Below the pieces are notes generated by a model. The model had not been told where the DNA came from. It was given only the letters and a program-made list of their open reading frames with translations, and did not search any database. Shown here in pieces: positions 36,608-52,453 of a stretch of 64,000 nucleotides of DNA. Position numbers and translations under genes: made by a program. Source of the DNA: Geothrix sp. 21YS21S-2 (lineage in GTDB: Bacteria; Acidobacteriota; Holophagae; Holophagales; Holophagaceae). Each line of letters opens with the position of its first letter. The first letter of the stretch is position 1. The DNA is taken from assembly GCF_030846775.1 (NCBI RefSeq), contig NZ_CP132910.1, positions 2,142,001 through 2,206,000 of the forward strand, written 5' to 3'.

Positions 36608-38623
36608 ATGGCTGAAACCACCGACCCTCCCCAGGCTGAAGATGGACAGGCCGGCAACCGGTTCCTGAAGGGGCCTCACGTCCGCAAGGTCGTGAAGGTC
36701 GCCCTCGACACCTTTGTCGCTTGCCTAGGTTTCGTGGTGGCGTCAAGCGTCCTCCTGCAGGGCGTGAACTTCGGGCGCGGCATGGTCGCCTTCGTGCTCA
36801 TCGCCATGTTCATCAACCTGGGACTGCGGTTCCACACCCAGCACTACCGGGCCATGGACATCCACGACGCCCGATGGCTTGTCCTGGGCACCGCCACCCT
36901 TGCGGGCACCAACATGACCCTCTGCCTGGTGCGGGGCGGCTGGACGGACAATGTCCGCCCGGACGTGGTCCTGGGCGCCAGCCTCATCACCGGCATCCTT
37001 TGGGTGGTGGTGCGCATGGCGGCCCTGGCCATCCACCAGCGCCGCCATTCGCATCCGTCCGTGGTGCCCGGCGGGATGCTGGCCGAGCGGACCCTCATCA
37101 TCGGCGCGGGACGCGCGGGCGTCCTGCTCTGCCAGGAGCTGCGGGAGCATCCGCGCCTGCGCTGCAACGTGCTGGGCTTCATCGACGACGACCTGGAGAA
37201 GCAGGGGCTGAGAATCCTGGGCATCCCCGTCCTGGGCCCGACCACGCTCCTTCCGCTGATCATCCGCGAACAGAACGTCTCCCAGGTCATCCTGGGCATG
37301 GCGGGGGTGCGCGGAGCGCGGCTGCGTGAACTGTCCAAGATCGTCATGACCGAGGGCATCAAGCTCAAGACCGTCCCCGGCATCATGGACCTCGTGGGCG
37401 ACCGGCCCTGGAAGCCCGAGGTGCGGGACATCGCCATCGAGGACCTGCTGCGCCGGGATCCCATCACCCTCGACACGGAGGCCATCCGGAAGGCCCTGGA
37501 CAACCAGGTGGTCCTCATCACCGGCGCGGGCGGTTCCATTGGAAGCGAACTGGCCCGGCGGGTGGCCGACATCCACCCCGGCAAGCTCGTGCTGCTGGGC
37601 CGCGGCGAGAACAGCCTCTGGGAGGTGCAGCGGCAGCTGGTCAACCTCTTCCCGAACCAGGAAGTGGAGATCGCCCTGTGCGACATCCGCAACCCCGCCC
37701 GCCTCCACCAGGTATTCGAGAAGTGGCGGCCCCGGGTCGTCCTGCACGCCGCCGCCCACAAGCATGTGCCGTTCCTGGAGGCCAACCCCGAGGAGGCCAT
37801 CGAGAACAACATCTTCGGCACCCGCAACGTCATCGAGGCCGCCAAGGCCTGCGGCACGCGGATCTTCGTGAACGTCTCCACCGACAAGGCCGTCAATCCG
37901 GTGAACATGCTGGGGGCCTCCAAGGCCGTGGGCGAGCTCCTGGTGGCCCGGGCCGCGATCGAGTGCCCCGGCTCCAAGTTCGTGAGCGTGCGGTTCGGCA
38001 ACGTCCTGGGCAGCCGCGGCAGCGTGATCCCCCTTTTCCGGGACCAGATCCGGGGCGGCGGACCCGTCACCATCACCCACCCGGACATGGTGCGCTACTT
38101 CATGACCATCCCCGAGGCGGCCCAACTGGTCCTCCAGGCGGGCATCCTGGGCGACACGGGCAAGGTCTTCGCCCTGGACATGGGCGAACCCGTGCACATC
38201 GTCAACCTGGCCGAGGAAATGGTCCGCCTGTCCGGGTTCTCCCCGGGGGTGGACGTGGACATCCGCTTCACGGGGGTCCGGCCCGGCGAGAAGCTGGTGG
38301 AGGAGCTCTTCACCGAAGGCCGCGTATCCCGCACCACCGTCCATCCCAAGGTCTTTGAGGCCAAGGAGTTCCCTGTGGATCCCGAACGGCTGCGGGAGGG
38401 GCTCGCCGTCTTGCGGGAGATCCTGGACGGCGAAGGCGAGACCTGCTACCCGAAAATGCTCCGGTGCTTCATGGAGCTGATTCCCACCTTCCAGCCCTCC
38501 CCCCACGGCCTCGGCCGGTACCTCGATGCCGAGGCGACGCCGGTCAACGGGAAAATCGTGGCGCCCGCCGCCCCGATCGATTTCAGGTCTCCGGAAACCC
38601 TGGGCCTTCGCGCTTACATCTGA
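36608..38623 (+). CDS. UDP-sugar 4,6-dehydratase, WbpM/PglF/CapD type
   Basis: A 671-residue membrane-anchored nucleotide sugar dehydratase. The N-terminal third has several hydrophobic segments (about 25-140) and a first nucleotide-binding unit. The catalytic SDR domain (about 295-600) starts VVLITGAGGSIGSELARR, with HAAAHKHVPFLE and NVSTDKAVNPVN, where the SxDK-type region replaces the usual YxxxK. This matches WbpM and PglF, which convert UDP-GlcNAc to its 4-keto-6-deoxy form. It opens the polysaccharide locus. With the DegT aminotransferase at 46569 it would yield a 4-amino-4,6-dideoxy sugar. Confidence 0.9.
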   Translation: MAETTDPPQAEDGQAGNRFLKGPHVRKVVKVALDTFVACLGFVVASSVLLQGVNFGRGMVAFVLIAMFINLGLRFHTQHYRAMDIHDARWLVLGTATLAGTNMTLCLVRGGWTDNVRPDVVLGASLITGILWVVVRMAALAIHQRRHSHPSVVPGGMLAERTLIIGAGRAGVLLCQELREHPRLRCNVLGFIDDDLEKQGLRILGIPVLGPTTLLPLIIREQNVSQVILGMAGVRGARLRELSKIVMTEGIKLKTVPGIMDLVGDRPWKPEVRDIAIEDLLRRDPITLDTEAIRKALDNQVVLITGAGGSIGSELARRVADIHPGKLVLLGRGENSLWEVQRQLVNLFPNQEVEIALCDIRNPARLHQVFEKWRPRVVLHAAAHKHVPFLEANPEEAIENNIFGTRNVIEAAKACGTRIFVNVSTDKAVNPVNMLGASKAVGELLVARAAIECPGSKFVSVRFGNVLGSRGSVIPLFRDQIRGGGPVTITHPDMVRYFMTIPEAAQLVLQAGILGDTGKVFALDMGEPVHIVNLAEEMVRLSGFSPGVDVDIRFTGVRPGEKLVEELFTEGRVSRTTVHPKVFEAKEFPVDPERLREGLAVLREILDGEGETCYPKMLRCFMELIPTFQPSPHGLGRYLDAEATPVNGKIVAPAAPIDFRSPETLGLRAYI

Positions 38624-38679
38624 TGGCATACTAGAAACCACAACAATCCACCTGGCCGTTTTTTTCTTTGGAGCGCATC

Positions 38680-39852
38680 GTGTTGCGAACCCTGGGGCAC
38701 GCTCAAGTTCCTTCATCCATTCCGGTCCGGGTGGCCCCCCTGAGGTTCCGCCTCGGCCTGGGACTGCTGGCCCTGACGCTTCTGGCCGGTTGCCAGGCTC
38801 CGGGCATGAAGCTCACCTCCCGGCCCAACAGCCATGAGCGGCCCGAGGATGTGGGAGGTCTTGCCGTCACGCTGCATCCCGTATCGCCGGAACTGGTCAA
38901 CCGTCAGGCCGCGCGCCCCGCGGTCCCGGTGGATCTCTCGGCCCTCGTGTCCGATCGGGCCCAGGTCTATCACGTGGGTTCCCAGGACGTGCTGCTCGTG
39001 ACGGTGTGGGATCACCCCGAGATCTCCCTCCCCATGGGGCCCAACCGCACCGACACCTCGTACGGCAACCTCGTGGACGAGGAGGGGTACATCTTCTTCC
39101 CCTACGTGGGCAAGCTGAAGGTCCAGGGCATGACCATCAGCCAGGTCCGCGACGCCCTCACCACCCAGCTGGCCAAGTCGCTGCGCAATCCCCAGGTGGA
39201 CGTGAAGGTCCTGGTCTACCGTTCCCAGAAGGTCTACGTGGGCGGCGAGGTGCGGAACCCGGCCATCTACCCCGTTACGGACGTCCCCTTCACCCTCGCC
39301 GAGGCCATCAATCGGGCCGGCGGCTTGCTGCCCGCCGCGGATGACAGCCGCATGGTGCTGACCCGGGGCTCGAAGTCCTGGATGCTCAATTTCCAGGCCC
39401 TCATGGCCATGGGCAATGCCTCTGGGCAGATCCTGCTCCAGGACGGCGACTCCCTGCAGATCCCCAACGCCAGCGAGGAACCGGTGTACCTCATGGGTGA
39501 ACTCATGCGGCCGGGCAACATCCCCCTCGTCCACGGCAAGCTCAGCCTTGCCAAGGCCATTTCCGAAGTGGGCGGAATCCAGGTCAGCAGCGCGGACGCG
39601 ACCTCCATCTACGTCATCCGTTCCGCCGGTGCGGCCAACAAGGTGGACGTCTTCCACCTGGACGCCCGCAACCCCGCCTCCATGATCCTGGCCGACAAGT
39701 TCGCCCTGAATCCCAGGGACATCGTCTACGTCGACGCCGGCACGCTGGTGCGGTTCAGCCGCGTGATGAACCTGCTCATGCCCACCATCAACGCCGTCAC
39801 GGCCGGGGCCTCCACCGGGGCGCAGGTCTACTATTTCAAGAAGCGCCTCTAG
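38680..39852 (+). CDS. wza: Wza-type polysaccharide export lipoprotein
   Basis: A 390-residue outer-membrane polysaccharide export protein. A GTG start is chosen because GGAG lies six bases upstream. The N-terminus carries a signal sequence and lipobox LLAGC (Cys near residue 38). A poly-export domain (about 85-180, including VGSQDVLLVTVWDHPE and DEEGYIFFPYVGKLKVQG) is followed by two SLBB domains (about 185-350, for example VYVGGEVRNPAIYPV and VYLMGELMRPGNIPLV). The last residues end in an amphipathic helix as in Wza. It should form the export channel paired with the Wzc protein downstream. Confidence 0.92.
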   Translation: MLRTLGHAQVPSSIPVRVAPLRFRLGLGLLALTLLAGCQAPGMKLTSRPNSHERPEDVGGLAVTLHPVSPELVNRQAARPAVPVDLSALVSDRAQVYHVGSQDVLLVTVWDHPEISLPMGPNRTDTSYGNLVDEEGYIFFPYVGKLKVQGMTISQVRDALTTQLAKSLRNPQVDVKVLVYRSQKVYVGGEVRNPAIYPVTDVPFTLAEAINRAGGLLPAADDSRMVLTRGSKSWMLNFQALMAMGNASGQILLQDGDSLQIPNASEEPVYLMGELMRPGNIPLVHGKLSLAKAISEVGGIQVSSADATSIYVIRSAGAANKVDVFHLDARNPASMILADKFALNPRDIVYVDAGTLVRFSRVMNLLMPTINAVTAGASTGAQVYYFKKRL

Positions 39853-39871
39853 GCGAACGATCCACCCGGCC

Positions 39872-40378
39872 ATGCCCGCCCCAACATCCTCCAAAGGTCG
39901 TCTCCTGAATTCACCCCTTTTGATCGAGTCCATTCTCGTAGTCTGCGACGGCAACCATTGTCGAAGCCCCATGGCGGAGGCCCTGCTCAAGGCCGGCGCG
40001 GGGGAGGGGCTGACCATCGGGTCCGCCGGACTCGGGGCCCTGGAGGACTACCCTGCCGATCCGGAAGCGGCCCGGCTGATGGCAGCCGAGGGCCTGGACA
40101 TCGGGAGCCACCGGGGCAGGCACTTCACTCCTGCCCTCGCGCTGGAGACGGATCTCATCCTCGTCATGGACGAACGCCAGAAAAAGGACTGCGAGAGAAG
40201 GGTCCCCAGCGCCCATGGGCGCATCTTCCTCCTCGGGCACTGGCGGCCGTCCCCCGATCGGGAAATTCCGGATCCGTTCCGGAAGGGGCCCGACGTCTTC
40301 CTGCAGGTTCTCAAGCAAATTCGCCAGTCCGTCGACGACTGGCTGATTCACGTGGTTCCCAAGCAAAGGTCTTCATGA
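39872..40378 (+). CDS. wzb: Low-molecular-weight protein tyrosine phosphatase (Wzb)
   Basis: A 168-residue phosphatase. The P-loop VCDGNHCRS (Cys-X5-Arg-Ser) lies near residue 24-32, and the general acid Asp is in the IPDPF block near 130. Wzb removes phosphate from the tyrosine cluster of Wzc, cycling polymer export. The P-loop has Asp-Gly-Asn-His where most relatives have Val/Thr-Gly-Asn-Ile/Leu. The start is uncertain because no clear ribosome site precedes the ATG; a shorter start at the TTG before IESILV is possible. Its stop overlaps the wzc start by four bases. Confidence 0.9.
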   Translation: MPAPTSSKGRLLNSPLLIESILVVCDGNHCRSPMAEALLKAGAGEGLTIGSAGLGALEDYPADPEAARLMAAEGLDIGSHRGRHFTPALALETDLILVMDERQKKDCERRVPSAHGRIFLLGHWRPSPDREIPDPFRKGPDVFLQVLKQIRQSVDDWLIHVVPKQRSS

Positions 40379-42615
40379 ACAACGCCTCCGCCCCCAACCC
40401 CAACAGGCCCCCCTTTTCCCAAGTGGGGGTTCCAGCTCCCCTGGCCGCCCAGGACAAGGCGGATGAATTCAACTTGAGCGAGGTTTTCGCCAACCTGTGG
40501 GAGGGGCGGTACCTGATTCTGGGTTCAGTGTTCCTCTTTGGGGCCGTGGGGCTCCTCTATGTCCTTTCGGCCACCCCCATCTACCAGGTCGAAGGCCTCC
40601 TGCAGACGGAAACGGCCAAGAGCTACAGCACCCAGACCGCGGAATTCACCAAGATGGAAGGGGTCTTCGCCCAGACGACCGTGGCCCAGGGCGAAATCGA
40701 GATCGTCAAGAGCAACCTCGTGCTCGGCCGGGTCGTGACCAACCTGGGCCTGGACATCCAAGCCGCGCCCGTGCTCACCCCCCTGGTGGGCAAGCTCCTC
40801 AACCGGAACCCCCTCACCCGGCCGAAAGTGGAGGTGACCTCCTTCGAAGTGCCGGACAAAGCCAGGGGGACCCTTTTCAAGCTGACCGCCCTGGCAGGGG
40901 GACTCTACCGGTGGAGCGGCCCGGATGGTTCCGTCCTGGCTGAAGGCAAGCCCGGCGAGCGGTTGAGCGCCACCTGGAATGGCTGGCCGATGAAGCTGAA
41001 GGTGCGCACCCTCCGCGGGAAGCCGGGCCAGGAGTTCTCCCTCTCCATGCGCCCCACGGTGGACGCCATCAACAGCCTCCGGCTCGGCCTCATGGTGGAG
41101 GAACGGGGGAAGAATGCCAACCAGTCGTCCAACCTCCTCGGCCTCTCCCTGACGGATCCCGACCCCGACCAGGCAGCCCTGATCCTGAATGAGATCCTCA
41201 ACCAGTACGTTCGCCAGACGATTGAACGCAAATCCGGCGACTCTTCCAAGGCTCTCATCCTCCTCCAGAATCAGCGACCCGCCCTCCAGGCCCAGCTCTC
41301 CGAAGCGGAGAGCCGATTGAACGACTACCGCCGTCAGAACGGCGCCCTGGACCTGGCCAGGGAGGGTGAGGTGTTCCTCCAGCAGGGCGCGTCCCTGGAG
41401 GCCCAGATCTCGACCCTGAAGCAGCGGCGGCAGGAACTCCTCAGGACCTATACGGAGCATTCCGACCTCGTCACGACCACCGACCAGCAGATCGCCCATC
41501 TCCAGCAGGAACTGTCCCGCACTTCCGGCAGGGTGTCCGCCCTCCCCAAGGCCCAGCAGGAAATCGTCCGGCTGACGCGGGATGCCCAGGTGAAGTCCGA
41601 AATGTACACCTCCCTGCTCACCAGCATCCAGCAGCTCCAGAACACCCTGGCAGGATCCGTAGGCAACGCCCGGGTGGTGGACTACGCCATTCCGCCCTTC
41701 GACTCCATCGCCCCCAGGAAGAAGGTCCTGATGGTCCTTTTCCTGTTCATCGGAACCACGGTCGGAGTGGGAATGGCCATCATCCGCCGGCTCATGCGCA
41801 GGGGGGTCGAGGACCACAGGATCATCGAGGCCAAGCTGGGCCTCCCGATCCTGGTGACCATCCCCCACTCGGAGTCCCAGGATAACTTCAACCGGGCCAT
41901 CCGGAGGCACGCCCAGGGCACCCACCTGCTGGCCATGGGGGAACCCGAGGACATCGCCACGGAGAGCATGCGGAGCCTGCGCACCGTCCTGCATTTCATG
42001 ATGGAGGACGTCACCAACCGCATCGTGCTGATCACCGGCCCTTCCCCCGAGGTGGGCAAGTCCTTCGTGAGCACCAACCTTGCCGCCGTCCTGGCCCAGG
42101 GAGGAGCCAAGGTGCTGCTGGTGGACGCAGATCTGCGGCGAGGCAACCTGCACCGCACGTTCGGAATCAAGGGGCGGGCGGGAGGCTTGTCGGAGGCCCT
42201 GACGGGGCGCGCCGACTGGAAGACCCTCCTCAAGACCACGCCCATTCCGGGGCTCAGCCTTCTCAGCACAGGCGTTCTGCCGCCGGACCCCCTGGTCCTG
42301 CTCATGTCCCCTTCCTTCTCCGAGTTCATGGGGCAGGTCTCGGAGGCCTTCGATTTTGTCATCGTGGATGCCCCGCCGATCCTCCCGGTGAGCGACGCAA
42401 TCGTCCTGGGGTCCAAGGCGGACACCATCCTGCTGGTGGCCAAATACGGCAAGCATCCCCTGGAGGAGATCCAGACCTGCCAGAACCGCCTGCGGCACCT
42501 GGAGGGCAAGCTGAAGGGGTGCCTCTTCAATGACATAAAGCTGGTCAAGGTTGGCGGGCTTTATGGCTACTACAAATACGAATTCGACTACAAGTACGAG
42601 AGGGGCGGCTCCTAG
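40375..42615 (+). CDS. wzc: Wzc-type polysaccharide co-polymerase and BY-kinase
   Basis: A 746-residue inner-membrane protein. Two membrane segments (about 46-66 and 440-460) flank a long periplasmic domain with coiled-coil sequence (about 300-400). The cytoplasmic kinase domain has Walker A GPSPEVGKS (555-563), Walker A' LLVDADLRRG and Walker B FVIVDAPP near 661-668. A tyrosine-rich tail follows (YGYYKYEFDYKYE), the autophosphorylation cluster. Wzc controls chain length and export with Wza and is reset by Wzb. All three genes are contiguous. Confidence 0.95.
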   Translation: MNNASAPNPNRPPFSQVGVPAPLAAQDKADEFNLSEVFANLWEGRYLILGSVFLFGAVGLLYVLSATPIYQVEGLLQTETAKSYSTQTAEFTKMEGVFAQTTVAQGEIEIVKSNLVLGRVVTNLGLDIQAAPVLTPLVGKLLNRNPLTRPKVEVTSFEVPDKARGTLFKLTALAGGLYRWSGPDGSVLAEGKPGERLSATWNGWPMKLKVRTLRGKPGQEFSLSMRPTVDAINSLRLGLMVEERGKNANQSSNLLGLSLTDPDPDQAALILNEILNQYVRQTIERKSGDSSKALILLQNQRPALQAQLSEAESRLNDYRRQNGALDLAREGEVFLQQGASLEAQISTLKQRRQELLRTYTEHSDLVTTTDQQIAHLQQELSRTSGRVSALPKAQQEIVRLTRDAQVKSEMYTSLLTSIQQLQNTLAGSVGNARVVDYAIPPFDSIAPRKKVLMVLFLFIGTTVGVGMAIIRRLMRRGVEDHRIIEAKLGLPILVTIPHSESQDNFNRAIRRHAQGTHLLAMGEPEDIATESMRSLRTVLHFMMEDVTNRIVLITGPSPEVGKSFVSTNLAAVLAQGGAKVLLVDADLRRGNLHRTFGIKGRAGGLSEALTGRADWKTLLKTTPIPGLSLLSTGVLPPDPLVLLMSPSFSEFMGQVSEAFDFVIVDAPPILPVSDAIVLGSKADTILLVAKYGKHPLEEIQTCQNRLRHLEGKLKGCLFNDIKLVKVGGLYGYYKYEFDYKYERGGS

Positions 42616-46568: not shown

Positions 46569-47726
46569 GTGAGAGGGAATTTCCTTCAGTTCAGCCCACC
46601 TTCCATCGGGGACACCGAGCGGTCCGAAGTCATGGACACGCTGATGTCGGATTGGATCACCACCGGTCCCAAGACCCGGCTGTTCGAGGCTGAGCTCAAG
46701 GCATACCTGGGCGCCCCCGGCCTCGTCAATTTCAATTCCTGCACTGCGGGGCTCCATGTGGGCCTGGTGGTGCTGGGCGTCGGGCCCGGCGACGAGGTCA
46801 TCGTGCCCAGCCTGACCTTCTGCGCGACGGCGAACGTCTGCGAGCACGTGGGCGCCAAACCGGTCCTGGTGGATGTCCTGCCCGGAACCCTCTGCATCGA
46901 TCCCCAGGCCGCGGCCCGGGCCATCACCCCCCGCACCCGGGCCATCATGCCCGTGCACTACGCAGGGCACCCCGCCCAGCTGGACGAGCTGTTCGCACTG
47001 GCGGACCTTCACGGGCTCCAGATCCTGGAGGACGCGGCCCATGCGCTCCCCGCCAGCTACAAGGGGAGACGGGTGGGCTCCCGGGGCAACCTGGCCTCCT
47101 TCAGTTTCTACGCCACCAAGAACCTCACCACGGCCGAGGGCGGGTGCCTCACCGGCGCCGAGGAGCTGATGGGCAGGGCCCGCATGATCGGCCACCACGG
47201 CATGGACAAGGAGGCCTGGAAGCGCTTCGACCGGTCCGGATCCTGGTACTACGAGGTCCTGATGCCGGGTTTCAAGTACAACATGACCGATATCCAGGCG
47301 GCCCTCGGCCTGGCCCAGCTCGCGCGCCTGGAAGGGTTCCAGGCCCGCCGCCGCCAGGTTTGGAACGCCTACAATGCCAGGCTCGGCAAGCTGGAGGAGC
47401 TGCAACTCCCCGTGGAGGACGCGGACGTGGAGTCCAGCCTGCACCTCTATGTGCTCCGCTTGCGCCCGGAAAAGCTAACCATCGAACGCAACGCGTTCAT
47501 CGAGGAATTGAAGGCCCGCCAGATCGGCACGTCGGTCCATTACCTCCCGGTGCACATGCAACCCTTCTACCGGGACAAGTACCATTACCGTCCCGAGGAC
47601 TGCCCCGTGGCCTTCGACGCGTTCTCCAGGATGCTCTCCCTGCCCCTGCACCCGGGCCTCACGGATCAGGATGTTGATGATGTCTGCTCCGCCATCGAAG
47701 AGATCGTCGCGACCCACCTGCGCTGA
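46569..47726 (+). CDS. DegT/DnrJ/EryC1-family sugar aminotransferase
   Basis: A 385-residue PLP enzyme. The PLP lysine is in FSFYATKNLTTAEGG near residues 178-192, and the LEDAAHALPASYKG block precedes it. This is the PglE/WbpE/ArnB class, which transaminates a 4-keto or 3-keto UDP sugar using glutamate. With the WbpM/PglF-type dehydratase it would produce a 4-amino-4,6-dideoxy sugar. The start codon is GTG. The next gene, an initiating sugar transferase, starts two bases downstream, so they form one operon. Confidence 0.92.
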   Translation: MRGNFLQFSPPSIGDTERSEVMDTLMSDWITTGPKTRLFEAELKAYLGAPGLVNFNSCTAGLHVGLVVLGVGPGDEVIVPSLTFCATANVCEHVGAKPVLVDVLPGTLCIDPQAAARAITPRTRAIMPVHYAGHPAQLDELFALADLHGLQILEDAAHALPASYKGRRVGSRGNLASFSFYATKNLTTAEGGCLTGAEELMGRARMIGHHGMDKEAWKRFDRSGSWYYEVLMPGFKYNMTDIQAALGLAQLARLEGFQARRRQVWNAYNARLGKLEELQLPVEDADVESSLHLYVLRLRPEKLTIERNAFIEELKARQIGTSVHYLPVHMQPFYRDKYHYRPEDCPVAFDAFSRMLSLPLHPGLTDQDVDDVCSAIEEIVATHLR

Positions 47727-47728
47727 CC

Positions 47729-48634
47729 ATGATCCGGCTCTTCGACTTCTTCTCCTCCCTGCTCGGTCTGGTTGTCCTTTCGCCTTTTCTCCTGCTGGTC
47801 GGGCTGCTCGTCAAGCTGGAGGACGGCGGGGCCGTCTTCTATCGCCAGGTGCGGGTGGGCCGGCATGGCAGGCCATTCCGGATATTGAAGTTCCGGACCA
47901 TGGCCGTGGACGCCGACCGCAAGGGGCCGCTCCTCACCGTGGGCCGGGACGTGCGCATCACGCGGCTGGGGGCCATGCTGCGCGCCTGGAAGATCGACGA
48001 GCTGCCCCAGCTGGTGAACGTCCTCACCGGGGACATGGGCCTGGTCGGACCGCGGCCCGAAGTCCCCAGGTACGTCTCGATCTATTCCAAGGACCAGGCC
48101 CGGGTGCTTGAGCTGAGGCCAGGGATCACGGACGCCGCGTCCATCGCCTACCGCTACGAGAACGACCTCCTCCGGGACTGTGAGGATCCGGAAACGTTCT
48201 ACAAGGAGAATATCCTTCCCAACAAGATCCGCATCAACCTGGAGTACGCGGCGCAGGCCACCTTCAGCTCCAATATCAAGGTCATCCTGGCCACCCTGGG
48301 GCTCCTCCCTCCCCCCGTGAAGCCCATCCGGCCCGGTGAACGCCGCGCGTTCGACCGAACCACGCTGGAACGGCCGGTTCTGGTAACCCATCCAGGAGCA
48401 GCTTCGGCCGTTTTGCAGGCCCACAATATCAGCAGGGGGGGGATGCTGGTGGAACCCCATCCGGGGTTGCCCGAGGGCAGCCCCTGCACCCTGGCCCTGC
48501 CCGAGGAGGGGGCAACGGATCCGGGGCTCATTGCGGAAGGCGTCGTCACCAGGAACAATGGACAAGGAACGGCGGTCCGTTTTGCCGGGCCACTGGGTGG
48601 CGAGGCTCTCAAGAGCCTGGACCCCCCGCAATGA
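47729..48634 (+). CDS. Initiating sugar-1-phosphate transferase with C-terminal PilZ domain
   Basis: A 301-residue fusion. Residues 1-195 form a small PglC-type bacterial sugar transferase: one hydrophobic re-entrant segment (8-30), KFRTM (54-58), DELPQL (90-95) and VGPRPE (106-111). It moves a phospho-sugar to undecaprenyl phosphate. Residues 200-298 look like a PilZ domain, with the c-di-GMP motifs RAFDR (206-210, RxxxR) and NISRGG (233-238, NxSxxG). Ordinary members of this transferase family end near residue 200. The first committed step of the polysaccharide would thus be under direct c-di-GMP control; this is inferred from motifs only. Confidence 0.85.
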   Translation: MIRLFDFFSSLLGLVVLSPFLLLVGLLVKLEDGGAVFYRQVRVGRHGRPFRILKFRTMAVDADRKGPLLTVGRDVRITRLGAMLRAWKIDELPQLVNVLTGDMGLVGPRPEVPRYVSIYSKDQARVLELRPGITDAASIAYRYENDLLRDCEDPETFYKENILPNKIRINLEYAAQATFSSNIKVILATLGLLPPPVKPIRPGERRAFDRTTLERPVLVTHPGAASAVLQAHNISRGGMLVEPHPGLPEGSPCTLALPEEGATDPGLIAEGVVTRNNGQGTAVRFAGPLGGEALKSLDPPQ

Positions 48635-50025
48635 ACGGCCCGGCGGATGCCTGTCGCATGACTTCGGAGGAGGCCTGGATGTCAGGGTTCGCGGAGAGCA
48701 CCGGAGCTGGAGACGAGGGAGCGGGTGGGTCGTCCTGGCGGATCCGCGCCCTTTCCATCCTGGTGATGATGGTCCTGGCCGGCATGCTGCCCTTCCTCTC
48801 CCACTACCTGCGGGTATCGACCTGGCTTCTCTGGGGCCTGATGATCCTGATCATCGCCTCCTTCGGGAGCAGGCTTTCCCTGGGGCGCCTGATGTGGCCG
48901 CTGGCCGCCTACCTCTGCTGGCTCTGCTTCTACTTCGCCTGGGGAAGCATCGTGGCCGGCCGCTTGGACACCTACTTCATCATCAAGACCCTGGGCATCA
49001 CGGCGCTCCTCGGGGCCACCATGGCGATCCTCTCCGCGAGTCCCCGGAACCTGCGGACCTTCGCCACCACGATCCAGTTCGCCGTCATCATCAATATCCT
49101 GGTGCTCCTCCTGTCCAGCCTGAGCTCGCAGGTGGATGCGGTGGTACGGACCGTCACCATGCGCTCGGCCGCGATGGAAGGCGGCTTCCAGCGCTATGGC
49201 GGCCTCTGGGGCAACCCGAACCTGGGCGCCTACATCTGCCTGGTGGTCCTGATCTTCTCGGCCTTCGCCGTCCCCTGGGCAGGCCTGCTGGGCCGATTGA
49301 GCTGCCTGCCCATCTTCTACCTGTCGGCCAGCCGCAAGGGAGCCATCCTCCTCGTTGTCATCACCCTCCTCTACATGGCCATCGTCCACCGGAGGAACGT
49401 CAAGGCCTGGATGGTGGCCCTTGCGCTGATCCTCGCCGGGGTCCTGGCCTTCACCTTCGGCGGCGCCCTCCGCAAGGAGTCCAGGTCCTCGTCCCCGAAC
49501 GCCTATTTCGCCCGGATGATGGACGTCAAGGAGAGCAACACGGCGGAACGCGGCGAGGCCACCCGGATCGACCTGTTCAATGACTGGATGGCCGTCGTGG
49601 CCGTGGAACCCTGGTACGGGTACGGCCTCAATGCCATGATCGGAACCCAGTTCGACGAGGAGCATCCGACGGTCATGACCCAGAAGGGACTCGTGGACAA
49701 CGGGACCCACAACACCTACCTGGGCGTATGGGTGGATGTGGGGCCCTTCGGGTTCTGCCTCTTCATGCTGATGATCGCCTACTACCTGCGGAAATGCCTC
49801 ACCGCCCCGGCGACGCCCAGGGTCCGGTGGGTGCTCGTCTCCTTCGCCCTGGTCAACCTGGTTTTCCTGTTCGTCAGCCACTCGCAGCTCACCTCCTTTG
49901 AGGGCGAGATCATCTACACCCTGCTCTTCCTGCTGCCCACCAGCCCGGCTGTGCGGGCGCAAATGCGCTTGCCGGGGCCCGATTCCGCGTCCCAGGGCCG
50001 ACTCCACTTTCTGCCTCAGTCCTAG
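48631..50025 (+). CDS. wzy: Wzy-type polysaccharide polymerase/O-antigen ligase
   Basis: A 464-residue membrane protein with ten or more hydrophobic segments. The Wzy_C block contains GLWGNPNLGAY near 190 and GTHNTYLGVWVDVGPFGF near 370, and a large extracytoplasmic loop lies between them. It should polymerise lipid-linked repeat units in the periplasm. The ATG overlaps the stop of the sugar transferase by four bases. A ligase role is possible in principle, since the families are hard to tell apart, but the Wza/Wzc context favours polymerase. Confidence 0.87.
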   Translation: MNGPADACRMTSEEAWMSGFAESTGAGDEGAGGSSWRIRALSILVMMVLAGMLPFLSHYLRVSTWLLWGLMILIIASFGSRLSLGRLMWPLAAYLCWLCFYFAWGSIVAGRLDTYFIIKTLGITALLGATMAILSASPRNLRTFATTIQFAVIINILVLLLSSLSSQVDAVVRTVTMRSAAMEGGFQRYGGLWGNPNLGAYICLVVLIFSAFAVPWAGLLGRLSCLPIFYLSASRKGAILLVVITLLYMAIVHRRNVKAWMVALALILAGVLAFTFGGALRKESRSSSPNAYFARMMDVKESNTAERGEATRIDLFNDWMAVVAVEPWYGYGLNAMIGTQFDEEHPTVMTQKGLVDNGTHNTYLGVWVDVGPFGFCLFMLMIAYYLRKCLTAPATPRVRWVLVSFALVNLVFLFVSHSQLTSFEGEIIYTLLFLLPTSPAVRAQMRLPGPDSASQGRLHFLPQS

Positions 50026-50034
50026 GAGGGCCCC

Positions 50035-51039
50035 ATGAACGTCGGTCTATGCAACCTCATGAAACCGGATTGGCAGGCGGAATTCGCCAAGGCCTGCTCG
50101 GCCCTGGGACTCGGGGTCAGGCCGATCAGGATTGGCGCGGACGACTGGATGGACCAGGTCAAGGGGTTGGACCTGTTCGTCTGGCGCCTGGTCATGGGCG
50201 AGACCAGCGGCATGGCCGAGGCCCGGACGAAGATCCCCATGCTCGAATCCATGGGCATCCCGTGCTTCCCCAATTCCCGGATGCTGTGGCTCTACGACGA
50301 CAAGATCCGCGAGACCTTCTTTCTCCGCCAGCATGGATACCCCACCCCCCGCACCTGGGTCTTCTTCGGCGAGGAGGAGGCCCGGAGCTTCGTGGCCCAG
50401 GCTGCCTACCCCCTGGTGGCCAAGTCCCACTGCGGCGCCTCGGCCGGGGGCGTCCAGCTCATCGCCGCCCCCCGGGACGCCGAGCGTCTCCTGGACCGGG
50501 TCTTCCGGAAGCCGGGGATCTGGGGCGATATCGTCGAGAACTATTACATCCTCCCGCGTCTGCGCAAGGGCGACCTCATCGTCCAGCTCAAGGCCCGCTA
50601 CCGGGACTCCTGGCCTCGTTACGCCTATTTCCAGGAATACATCCACATCGACCGGGACTGGCGGATCACCACGCTGGGACCCGATCTGGTGTCGGCCTTC
50701 GCCCGGAAGAACCGGCCCGGTGATTTCCGGGCGAGCGGCAGCGGCATCTGGGAGAAGGCCGAGCTCGGGGACCTGCCCGCCGATGCGTGCGATCTGGCCC
50801 TGGAGATCAGCAACTCGAATGGTTTCACCAGTATGACCTACGATTTCATGCGGAGCGGGGACCGCTGGGTCATCGGCGAGCTGTCCTATGCGTTCCTCCT
50901 CAACAACGTCTACTGCGACACGCTCTTCCGGCGGGAAAACGGAACCTACGTGAACTCCGGCCCCATCCCCATCGGGGAGATGCACCTCAGGGCGGCCCTG
51001 GGCACCCTCACGGGAGGGGCAGATGGCCGGAACCGCTGA
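50035..51039 (+). CDS. ATP-grasp protein in the polysaccharide locus
   Basis: A 334-residue ATP-grasp protein of the RimK-like type. The central domain has YPLVAKSHCGASAGGVQLI, with the ATP-binding Lys and glycine-rich loop, and VQEYI-like YFQEYIHIDRDWRITTLG. Near the C-terminus is YDFMRSGDRWVIGELS, which holds metal-binding acidic residues. Enzymes of this fold join a carboxylate to an amine through an acyl phosphate. In this locus it might amidate GalNAcA or attach an amino acid to the polymer precursor; that is speculative. It overlaps the flippase gene by 17 bases. Confidence 0.8.
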   Translation: MNVGLCNLMKPDWQAEFAKACSALGLGVRPIRIGADDWMDQVKGLDLFVWRLVMGETSGMAEARTKIPMLESMGIPCFPNSRMLWLYDDKIRETFFLRQHGYPTPRTWVFFGEEEARSFVAQAAYPLVAKSHCGASAGGVQLIAAPRDAERLLDRVFRKPGIWGDIVENYYILPRLRKGDLIVQLKARYRDSWPRYAYFQEYIHIDRDWRITTLGPDLVSAFARKNRPGDFRASGSGIWEKAELGDLPADACDLALEISNSNGFTSMTYDFMRSGDRWVIGELSYAFLLNNVYCDTLFRRENGTYVNSGPIPIGEMHLRAALGTLTGGADGRNR

Positions 51040-52453
51040 CGCCCCGGTCCAGGGGGAGGCTCCCCAGCCGGAGGAAGAGTCCATCTTCCATCGGGTGCTT
51101 TCGCGCTGGCGCCGGCTTACGACCGGTTCCGTGAACCGGCGGGTCCTGGGCGCCACCCTGGTGGTGGGATCCATGACCATCATCATCAAGGCCATCTCCC
51201 TCCTGAAGGAATCCTTCGTGGCCGCCTCCTTCGGGACGGGCGGGGACTACGACGCCTTCATCGTCGCCCTGCTGCTCCCGAGCACCATCGTGGGCATCCT
51301 TTCCGGATCCCTCAACGCGGCCCTCATTCCCACCTACATCGAAATCCGGGACAAGGAGAACAAGGAGGCCGCCCAGCGCCTCTACACGACGATCCTCCTG
51401 TGGAACACCATCCTCCTCGGGGGACTGACGCTCCTCATGGCCTGGACCGTGCGGCTCTGGCTTCCCTTCATCGCCTGGGGATTCGATCCGGCCAAGCTGG
51501 AATTGACCCGGACCATCGCCCTCTGGTCCCTTCCCCTGGTGCTCCTGACCGGGTTCGCCACGACCTGGGGAGCCATCCTCAATGCCGGGGAACGGTTCGC
51601 CCTGGTGGCCATCGCACCCGCCCTCCAGCCCCTGGCCATCATCCTCGGGCTGAGCTTCTTCTGCCGTGCCTGGGGCATCTATGCCCTCCTGTTCGGCACG
51701 GTCCTTGGCGTCCTGCTGGAAACCGTGGTCCTGGGCATGGCGCTTGCCCGGAAGGGGCATCCCCTCCTGCCCCGCTGGCACGGCGTCACCACCGCATTCC
51801 GGAAGGTGCGCGCCCAGTATGGCGCGTGCATCGCGGCGGCCTTCCTGGTCAACGGCATGGGCCTTGTGGACCAGGCCTTCGCCTCGACCCTTGGACCCCG
51901 CAGCAATTCGGCCCTGAGCTACGGCAGCAAGCTGGTGGGCCTCGTGCTCACCCTCGGCGGGACCGCGCTGGGGACGGCCATTCTGCCCCAGCTGTCCCGG
52001 ATGGTCGCCAACAACAACTGGACGGGCATCCGCCGCTTCCTCCGCCAGTACACCGCTCTCATCCTCGCCGTCGCGGTACCCACCACGGTCATCCTCATCC
52101 TGCTCTCCACCTTCATCGTCAGGACCATGTTCCAGAACGGCTCGTTCAACGCCTCGGACACGGCCCTCGTGGTGCGGATCCAGATCTTCTACCTCCTGCG
52201 GATCCCCTTCTCCGCCTGCGGCATCCTGGTCACGCGGACCCTCACGGCCCTGCGCGCGAACCACTTCCTCATGTGGACGGCCGTCGTCAGCTTCACCATC
52301 AACGCGGCCCTGGACTATCTTTTCATCCAGACCTACGGGATCGCAGGCATCACCCTTTCCACGTCCGTCTGCAGCTGCATCATCTTCCTGGGCGCCAGCT
52401 ATGCGATGTACCGGCTCCTCGACAGGCGGGCGCTGGAATCCCCCGCGGCATGA
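51023..52453 (+). CDS. MurJ/Wzx-type lipid-linked oligosaccharide flippase
   Basis: A 476-residue MOP-superfamily membrane protein with about fourteen hydrophobic segments after a 40-residue acidic N-terminus. [26 protein letters not shown] and [11 protein letters not shown] match the MurJ N-terminal lobe. Located between Wzy and acyltransferase genes, it most likely flips the polysaccharide repeat unit (Wzx function) instead of lipid II. A second, housekeeping murJ would be expected elsewhere. Confidence 0.88.

Follow-up and report, generated by a model that had tools for sequence, protein, structure and literature searches.

A PilZ-type domain fused to a small sugar-priming transferase in a Geothrix polysaccharide gene cluster

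The window analysed here is a stretch of 64,000 nucleotides from Geothrix sp. 21YS21S-2 (contig NZ_CP132910.1, positions 2,142,001 to 2,206,000), and it contains a gene for a sugar-priming transferase that carries a PilZ-type domain at its C-terminus. This arrangement is confirmed as a real, conserved fusion in the source bacterium, a soil or sediment member of the Holophagaceae, and three relatives. The open reading frame (ORF) at 47729-48634 on the plus strand is uninterrupted from ATG to TGA and encodes 301 residues. With a second domain in the same polypeptide as a monotopic phosphoglycosyl transferase (monoPGT) core, as judged by Pfam, the protein qualifies as a Bi-PGT, a class defined by a monoPGT joined to another functional domain (PMC10942596). 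The parts of the gene are as follows.

47729..48634, + strand: whole gene, small monoPGT with C-terminal PilZ domain, 301 residues (ORF, Pfam, full-length relatives)
47735..48298, + strand: PglC-like transferase domain, residues 3-190, PF02397
47996..48001, + strand: Asp90-Glu91, aligned with the DE pair of C. concisus PglC
48299..48337, + strand: linker, residues 191-203; model confidence falls to about 52 across residues 201-210
48338..48583, + strand: PilZ domain, residues 204-285, PF07238 (Pfam, fold matches, stand-alone kin)
48344..48358, + strand: RxxxR motif, R206-A-F-D-R210 (codons read)
48425..48442, + strand: NxSxxG motif, N233-I-S-R-G-G238 (codons read)

Architecture of the fusion protein

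PF02397 aligns with residues 3-190 over positions 2-174 of the 179 in its profile (183.7 bits, E 2.9e-54), and the same core matches C. concisus PglC in direct sequence comparison (E 1e-24). The predicted core also resembles the solved structures of PglC (8e37, Z 18.2) and WbaP (8t53, Z 18.5). In the alignment with C. concisus PglC, Asp90 and Glu91 fall on the DE pair, the catalytic dyad of monotopic phosphoglycosyl transferases (PGTs), and Gly107-Pro110 form the GPRP motif. Both acidic residues are invariant in the four fused proteins; across 28 aligned rows of relatives, Glu91 and Gly107-Pro110 are invariant and Asp90 is kept at 90% or more. Large PGTs are defined by an N-terminal four-helix bundle and a domain of unknown function (DUF). 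The core described here begins at ORF residue 1-3 with neither element and, lacking the four-helix bundle, is therefore classed as a small monoPGT. Judged by its sequence, the transferase part is a complete enzyme of the PglC type, for which sugar-1-phosphate transfer is predicted.

The tail that follows the core is about 106 residues long. In isolation it scores 24.4-24.5 bits against PF07238, over the curated cut-off of 22.5 bits, and it carries both motifs associated with binding of cyclic dimeric guanosine monophosphate (c-di-GMP). In a profile alignment with PA4608, whose structure is solved with c-di-GMP, the tail motifs pair with RRFHR and DVSLHG. Alignment of ten fused and stand-alone PilZ domains shows both Arg and the Ala of the RxxxR motif to be invariant; in the second motif the Asn and the Gly pair are invariant and the third position is Ser or Gly. 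Among the fused proteins this second motif reads NISRGG in the window, NISLGG in G042 and NLGPGG in G002 and G005.

The codons of NISRGG include a run of eight G at 48435-48442. A one-base insertion in this run would lead to in-frame continuation into the downstream Wzy gene, and a one-base deletion would likewise lead past the usual stop. Slippage is kept as a possibility only, because the 64-kb window holds four G or C runs of at least 8 nt and the orthologues do not preserve this one.

An AlphaFold model of the fusion protein, built with 28 sequences, has a mean predicted local distance difference test (pLDDT) score of 87.5 and comprises the PglC-like core, a series of strands spanning residues 216-285 and a short C-terminal helix. 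Comparison of residues 202-301 with solved structures using VIA-align highlighted the PilZ domain of E. coli BcsA (Z 10.7) and PA0012 with c-di-GMP bound (8u0i, Z 10.0), with unrelated barrels beneath them at Z of about 5.5-6.7. Single-sequence folding of the isolated tail returned nearly the same strand order, at a mean pLDDT of only 60. As modelled, the tail is a PilZ beta-barrel.

The closest kin of the tail are stand-alone PilZ proteins of the Holophagaceae, most of which have a hydrophobic C-terminal region. When a small set of 130 open frames is searched with the tail, they come up at E values between 2e-13 and 2e-16, and nine of the ten members of the tail-kin set themselves match PF07238. 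Two results count against the assignment: within the whole window protein the PF07238 score is a marginal 21.1 bits, slightly under the cut-off, so that automatic Pfam annotation would narrowly miss the domain, and the whole protein of G042 has no PilZ match over the cut-off. The first of these is what could be cited for a chance resemblance of the motifs in a low-complexity C-terminus. Such an explanation is very improbable, however, given that the isolated tail and two whole orthologues (24.0 and 29.0 bits) exceed the cut-off, that kin reach E 1e-12 or better and some of these, several in number, are PilZ by Pfam in their own right, and that the fold matches solved PilZ structures; fold and homology together leave chance little room.

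These results bear out the initial annotation in its description of the protein. It had placed a complete PglC-type transferase at residues 1-195 and a tail of about 100 residues behind it with RAFDR and NISRGG, and its numbering of Arg206 and Arg210 agrees with the codons. It had also called the tail PilZ, a claim to be given up should the profile fail to match; the isolated tail is over the cut-off, and kin and fold agree.

Distribution and evolution of the fusion

The transferase was found in 20 of 77 Holophagaceae genomes. Four of these encode the fused form (the window protein, G002, G005 and G042, the last on a contig of a Geothrix metagenome-assembled genome (MAG), L043), and the other 16 proteins end near residue 200. 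Across the phylum 297 genomes were surveyed, a sample without G002 and G005, and full-length matches came only from G000 and G042. Other phyla were covered by a contig scan with two transferase peptides, of which the best 80 loci were considered; such a scan would not detect PilZ fused to a transferase more distant than these. One apparent match to residues 1-290, in a Rhodospirillales contig (L054), was rejected, as the transferase there stops at 197 residues with no PilZ ORF behind it. Twenty long-frame candidates from the searches of relatives and phylum owed their extra length to upstream sequence or to short C-terminal tails that, by eye, are not PilZ. Further loci (L063, L065-L069, L074, L075 and L077), which come mostly from Chloroflexota MAGs, show a small sugar transferase whose reading frame continues into a long membrane segment and a nucleotide-binding-like stretch (GERVLIVGAGE), the inverse of the order in large monoPGTs.

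In a tree of transferase domains the four fused proteins group with weak support (62/93); a single gain of the fusion is likely but not proven from this sequence comparison. The tails of the fused relatives are only 37-44% identical to that of the window protein, yet RAFDR is invariant in all four. For the close pair G005 and G002 the ratio of nonsynonymous to synonymous substitution rates (dN/dS) is 0.37 in the tail and 0.17 in the transferase. On these ratios the tail is under purifying selection, evolving faster than the transferase but constrained.

Searched with a profile built from the PilZ domains of the source genome, the loci checked showed no PilZ gene adjoining an unfused transferase; this profile is insensitive, having also failed to pick up the tail of the window protein and a stand-alone relative within the loci searched. 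Comparing loci directly with the tail identified the following stand-alone PilZ kin in or near Holophagaceae polysaccharide clusters.

L123, 5015-5941, - strand: stand-alone PilZ kin of the tail
L123, 7066-7788, + strand: stand-alone PilZ kin of the tail
L137, 10586-11245, - strand: stand-alone PilZ kin of the tail
L138, 5434-6177, - strand: stand-alone PilZ kin of the tail

One of these relatives (recorded for L123 and for G036) has another sugar transferase gene at a distance of about 1.1 kb. The stand-alone proteins could be counterparts that act in trans to the fusion, which would itself have arisen by capture of a PilZ domain of the stand-alone type.

Gene cluster and proposed control by c-di-GMP

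The fusion gene lies in a cluster with the components of a Wzx/Wzy-type pathway. Several glycosyltransferases and an ATP-grasp protein are encoded in addition to the following.

36608..38623, + strand: FlaA1/CapD-type nucleotide-sugar dehydratase, context for the sugar donor of the transferase
38668..42615, + strand: Wza-type export protein, low-molecular-weight tyrosine phosphatase (Wzb-type) and Wzc-type tyrosine kinase
46569..47726, + strand: DegT/DnrJ/EryC1 aminotransferase, directly upstream of the fusion gene and conserved beside fused and unfused versions
48631..50025, + strand: Wzy/O-antigen-ligase-like membrane protein, its ATG overlapping the stop codon of the fusion gene
51023..52453, + strand: MurJ/Wzx-type flippase

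Two bases separate the DegT gene from the fusion gene, and the order DegT-fusion-Wzy is kept in all four fused loci. In the three unfused loci examined, DegT is still beside the transferase and no match to the fusion-type Wzy was found. The ATP-grasp protein (50035-51039, a weak RimK match) lies between Wzy and Wzx and is 69% identical in a fused Geothrix locus. The Wzc-type kinase (40378-42615) has a tyrosine-rich C-terminus and adjoins the low-molecular-weight tyrosine phosphatase; the same pathway therefore probably has a second, phosphorylation-based control. Given a dehydratase and an aminotransferase in the cluster, the sugar is probably a 4-amino-4,6-dideoxy sugar of the bacillosamine type.

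The genome carries 22 GGDEF domains and at least 10 other PilZ domains above the cut-off, so c-di-GMP signaling is very probably present. We lean, with modest assurance, towards a membrane-anchored transferase whose PilZ domain would bind c-di-GMP and gate catalysis in cis. The transferase would start a Wzx/Wzy-type surface polysaccharide by moving a sugar-1-phosphate from a UDP-sugar to its polyprenyl-phosphate carrier, and the cytoplasmic PilZ domain would bind c-di-GMP through Arg206 and Arg210 in the linker and Asn233, Ser235 and Gly238 in the barrel. Binding would pull the flexible, RxxxR-bearing linker onto the barrel, the linker being the moving part as in BcsA, and would thereby shift the barrel relative to the active site, which lies at the membrane surface. 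By analogy with BcsA, release of inhibition, with activation at high c-di-GMP, appears more likely than repression. That c-di-GMP would in this way directly control the committed, carrier-lipid-consuming first step of the Wzx/Wzy pathway through the fused PilZ domain is put forward more tentatively.

Several observations weigh against cis gating by c-di-GMP, beyond the marginal Pfam scores. The RxxxR segment is modelled at pLDDT <50 (residues 205-209); a poorly modelled linker would agree with a segment that needs ligand to become ordered, and proves nothing. The Ser of NxSxxG is replaced by Gly in two of the four fused proteins (G002 and G005). Rare in the family, the fusion occurs in 4 of 77 genomes, and as most orthologues are without PilZ, the domain is presumably dispensable for catalysis. 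PilZ domains can also serve as protein-docking modules that do not bind c-di-GMP.

The Ser to Gly change, the faster evolution of the tail (dN/dS 0.37 versus 0.17) and the marginal Pfam score could alternatively be explained by a PilZ domain that has lost c-di-GMP binding in this lineage and is now structural, dimerizing or a relic. Such a loss is improbable in view of the invariance of RAFDR despite divergence in the rest of the tail, and of Asn and the Gly pair across ten domains, and in view of an intact frame and a well-predicted barrel.

A less improbable explanation, still rather unlikely, is that the domain does bind c-di-GMP but serves to recruit or localize the transferase onto Wzy, Wzx, Wzc or a membrane PilZ protein, with catalysis not directly changed. 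Consistent with this, the stop codon of the fusion gene overlaps the start of Wzy, the fused versions always precede this type of Wzy, and the stand-alone kin in or near polysaccharide loci, mostly with their hydrophobic C-terminal region, indicate a domain family that may act in trans. The low-confidence linker, for its part, fails to discriminate recruitment from cis gating.

The initial annotation had proposed that c-di-GMP acts on the first lipid-linked step. Architecture, motifs, the 22 GGDEF domains and the Wza/Wzb/Wzc-Wzx-Wzy cluster fit that proposal; c-di-GMP binding and its coupling to catalysis are, like the direction of the effect and the identity of the sugar, what we infer, and the Ser to Gly change in two of four proteins tells against it.

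Comparison with known systems

The fusion suggests that c-di-GMP may switch a surface polysaccharide pathway at its very first step. How bacteria keep Wzx/Wzy pathways from draining a scarce, shared carrier lipid is an open question (PMC12802240, PMC10942596), and a natural single-chain combination of sensor and initiating enzyme makes it directly testable, with unfused orthologues at 60-70% identity as ready-made controls. If true, control of polysaccharides by c-di-GMP would reach beyond synthases to the initiating step of the Wzy route, a control point for c-di-GMP not found described in the literature searched.

Other initiating transferases are controlled by different means. In WbaP, for one, control comes from a DUF that senses UMP (PMC10942596). 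The large monoPGTs WbaP, WcaJ and EpsZ resemble the window protein in combining the same catalytic core with an additional domain whose proposed role is to control the initial step of Wzx/Wzy pathways; the extra elements of WbaP are N-terminal (four helices and the DUF) and sense UMP, whereas the extra domain here is a C-terminal PilZ. EpsZ is under response-regulator control and CapM under tyrosine phosphorylation (both PMC12802240). As in the EpsW-EpsZ system of Myxococcus xanthus (PMC12802240), an initiating transferase would be controlled post-translationally, but the window protein carries its PilZ domain in cis, as a fusion. For small monoPGTs joined to receiver domains, PMC12802240 cites O'Toole et al. 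2021 (PNAS); as far as that citation describes them, the regulatory domain is likewise fused, but is a receiver and not PilZ. With PglC and other small monoPGTs the window protein shares a core of about 195 residues, the N-terminal membrane helix, the DE pair and GPRP; PglC stops after the core, whereas the window protein continues with PilZ.

PilZ domains control the polysaccharide synthases BcsA and Alg44. BcsA likewise has a C-terminally fused PilZ domain with RxxxR and (D/N)xSxxG, and it is the BcsA domain that the tail matches at Z 10.7. In contrast to the window protein, BcsA and Alg44 are a processive glycosyltransferase family 2 (GT2) synthase and a co-polymerase subunit, respectively, neither of which starts a lipid-linked repeat unit. 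Literature on PilZ domains and phosphoglycosyl transferases yielded no described fusion, a search that did not cover the 2021 PNAS survey of monoPGTs, the source likeliest to list one; with that proviso it agrees with the initial annotation, which knew of no well-described example. A PilZ domain on a sugar-polymerizing enzyme is already known in BcsA. The fusion thus brings together a known enzyme class and a known sensor domain in a combination not found described, and what is unusual about it is the class of enzyme that carries PilZ.
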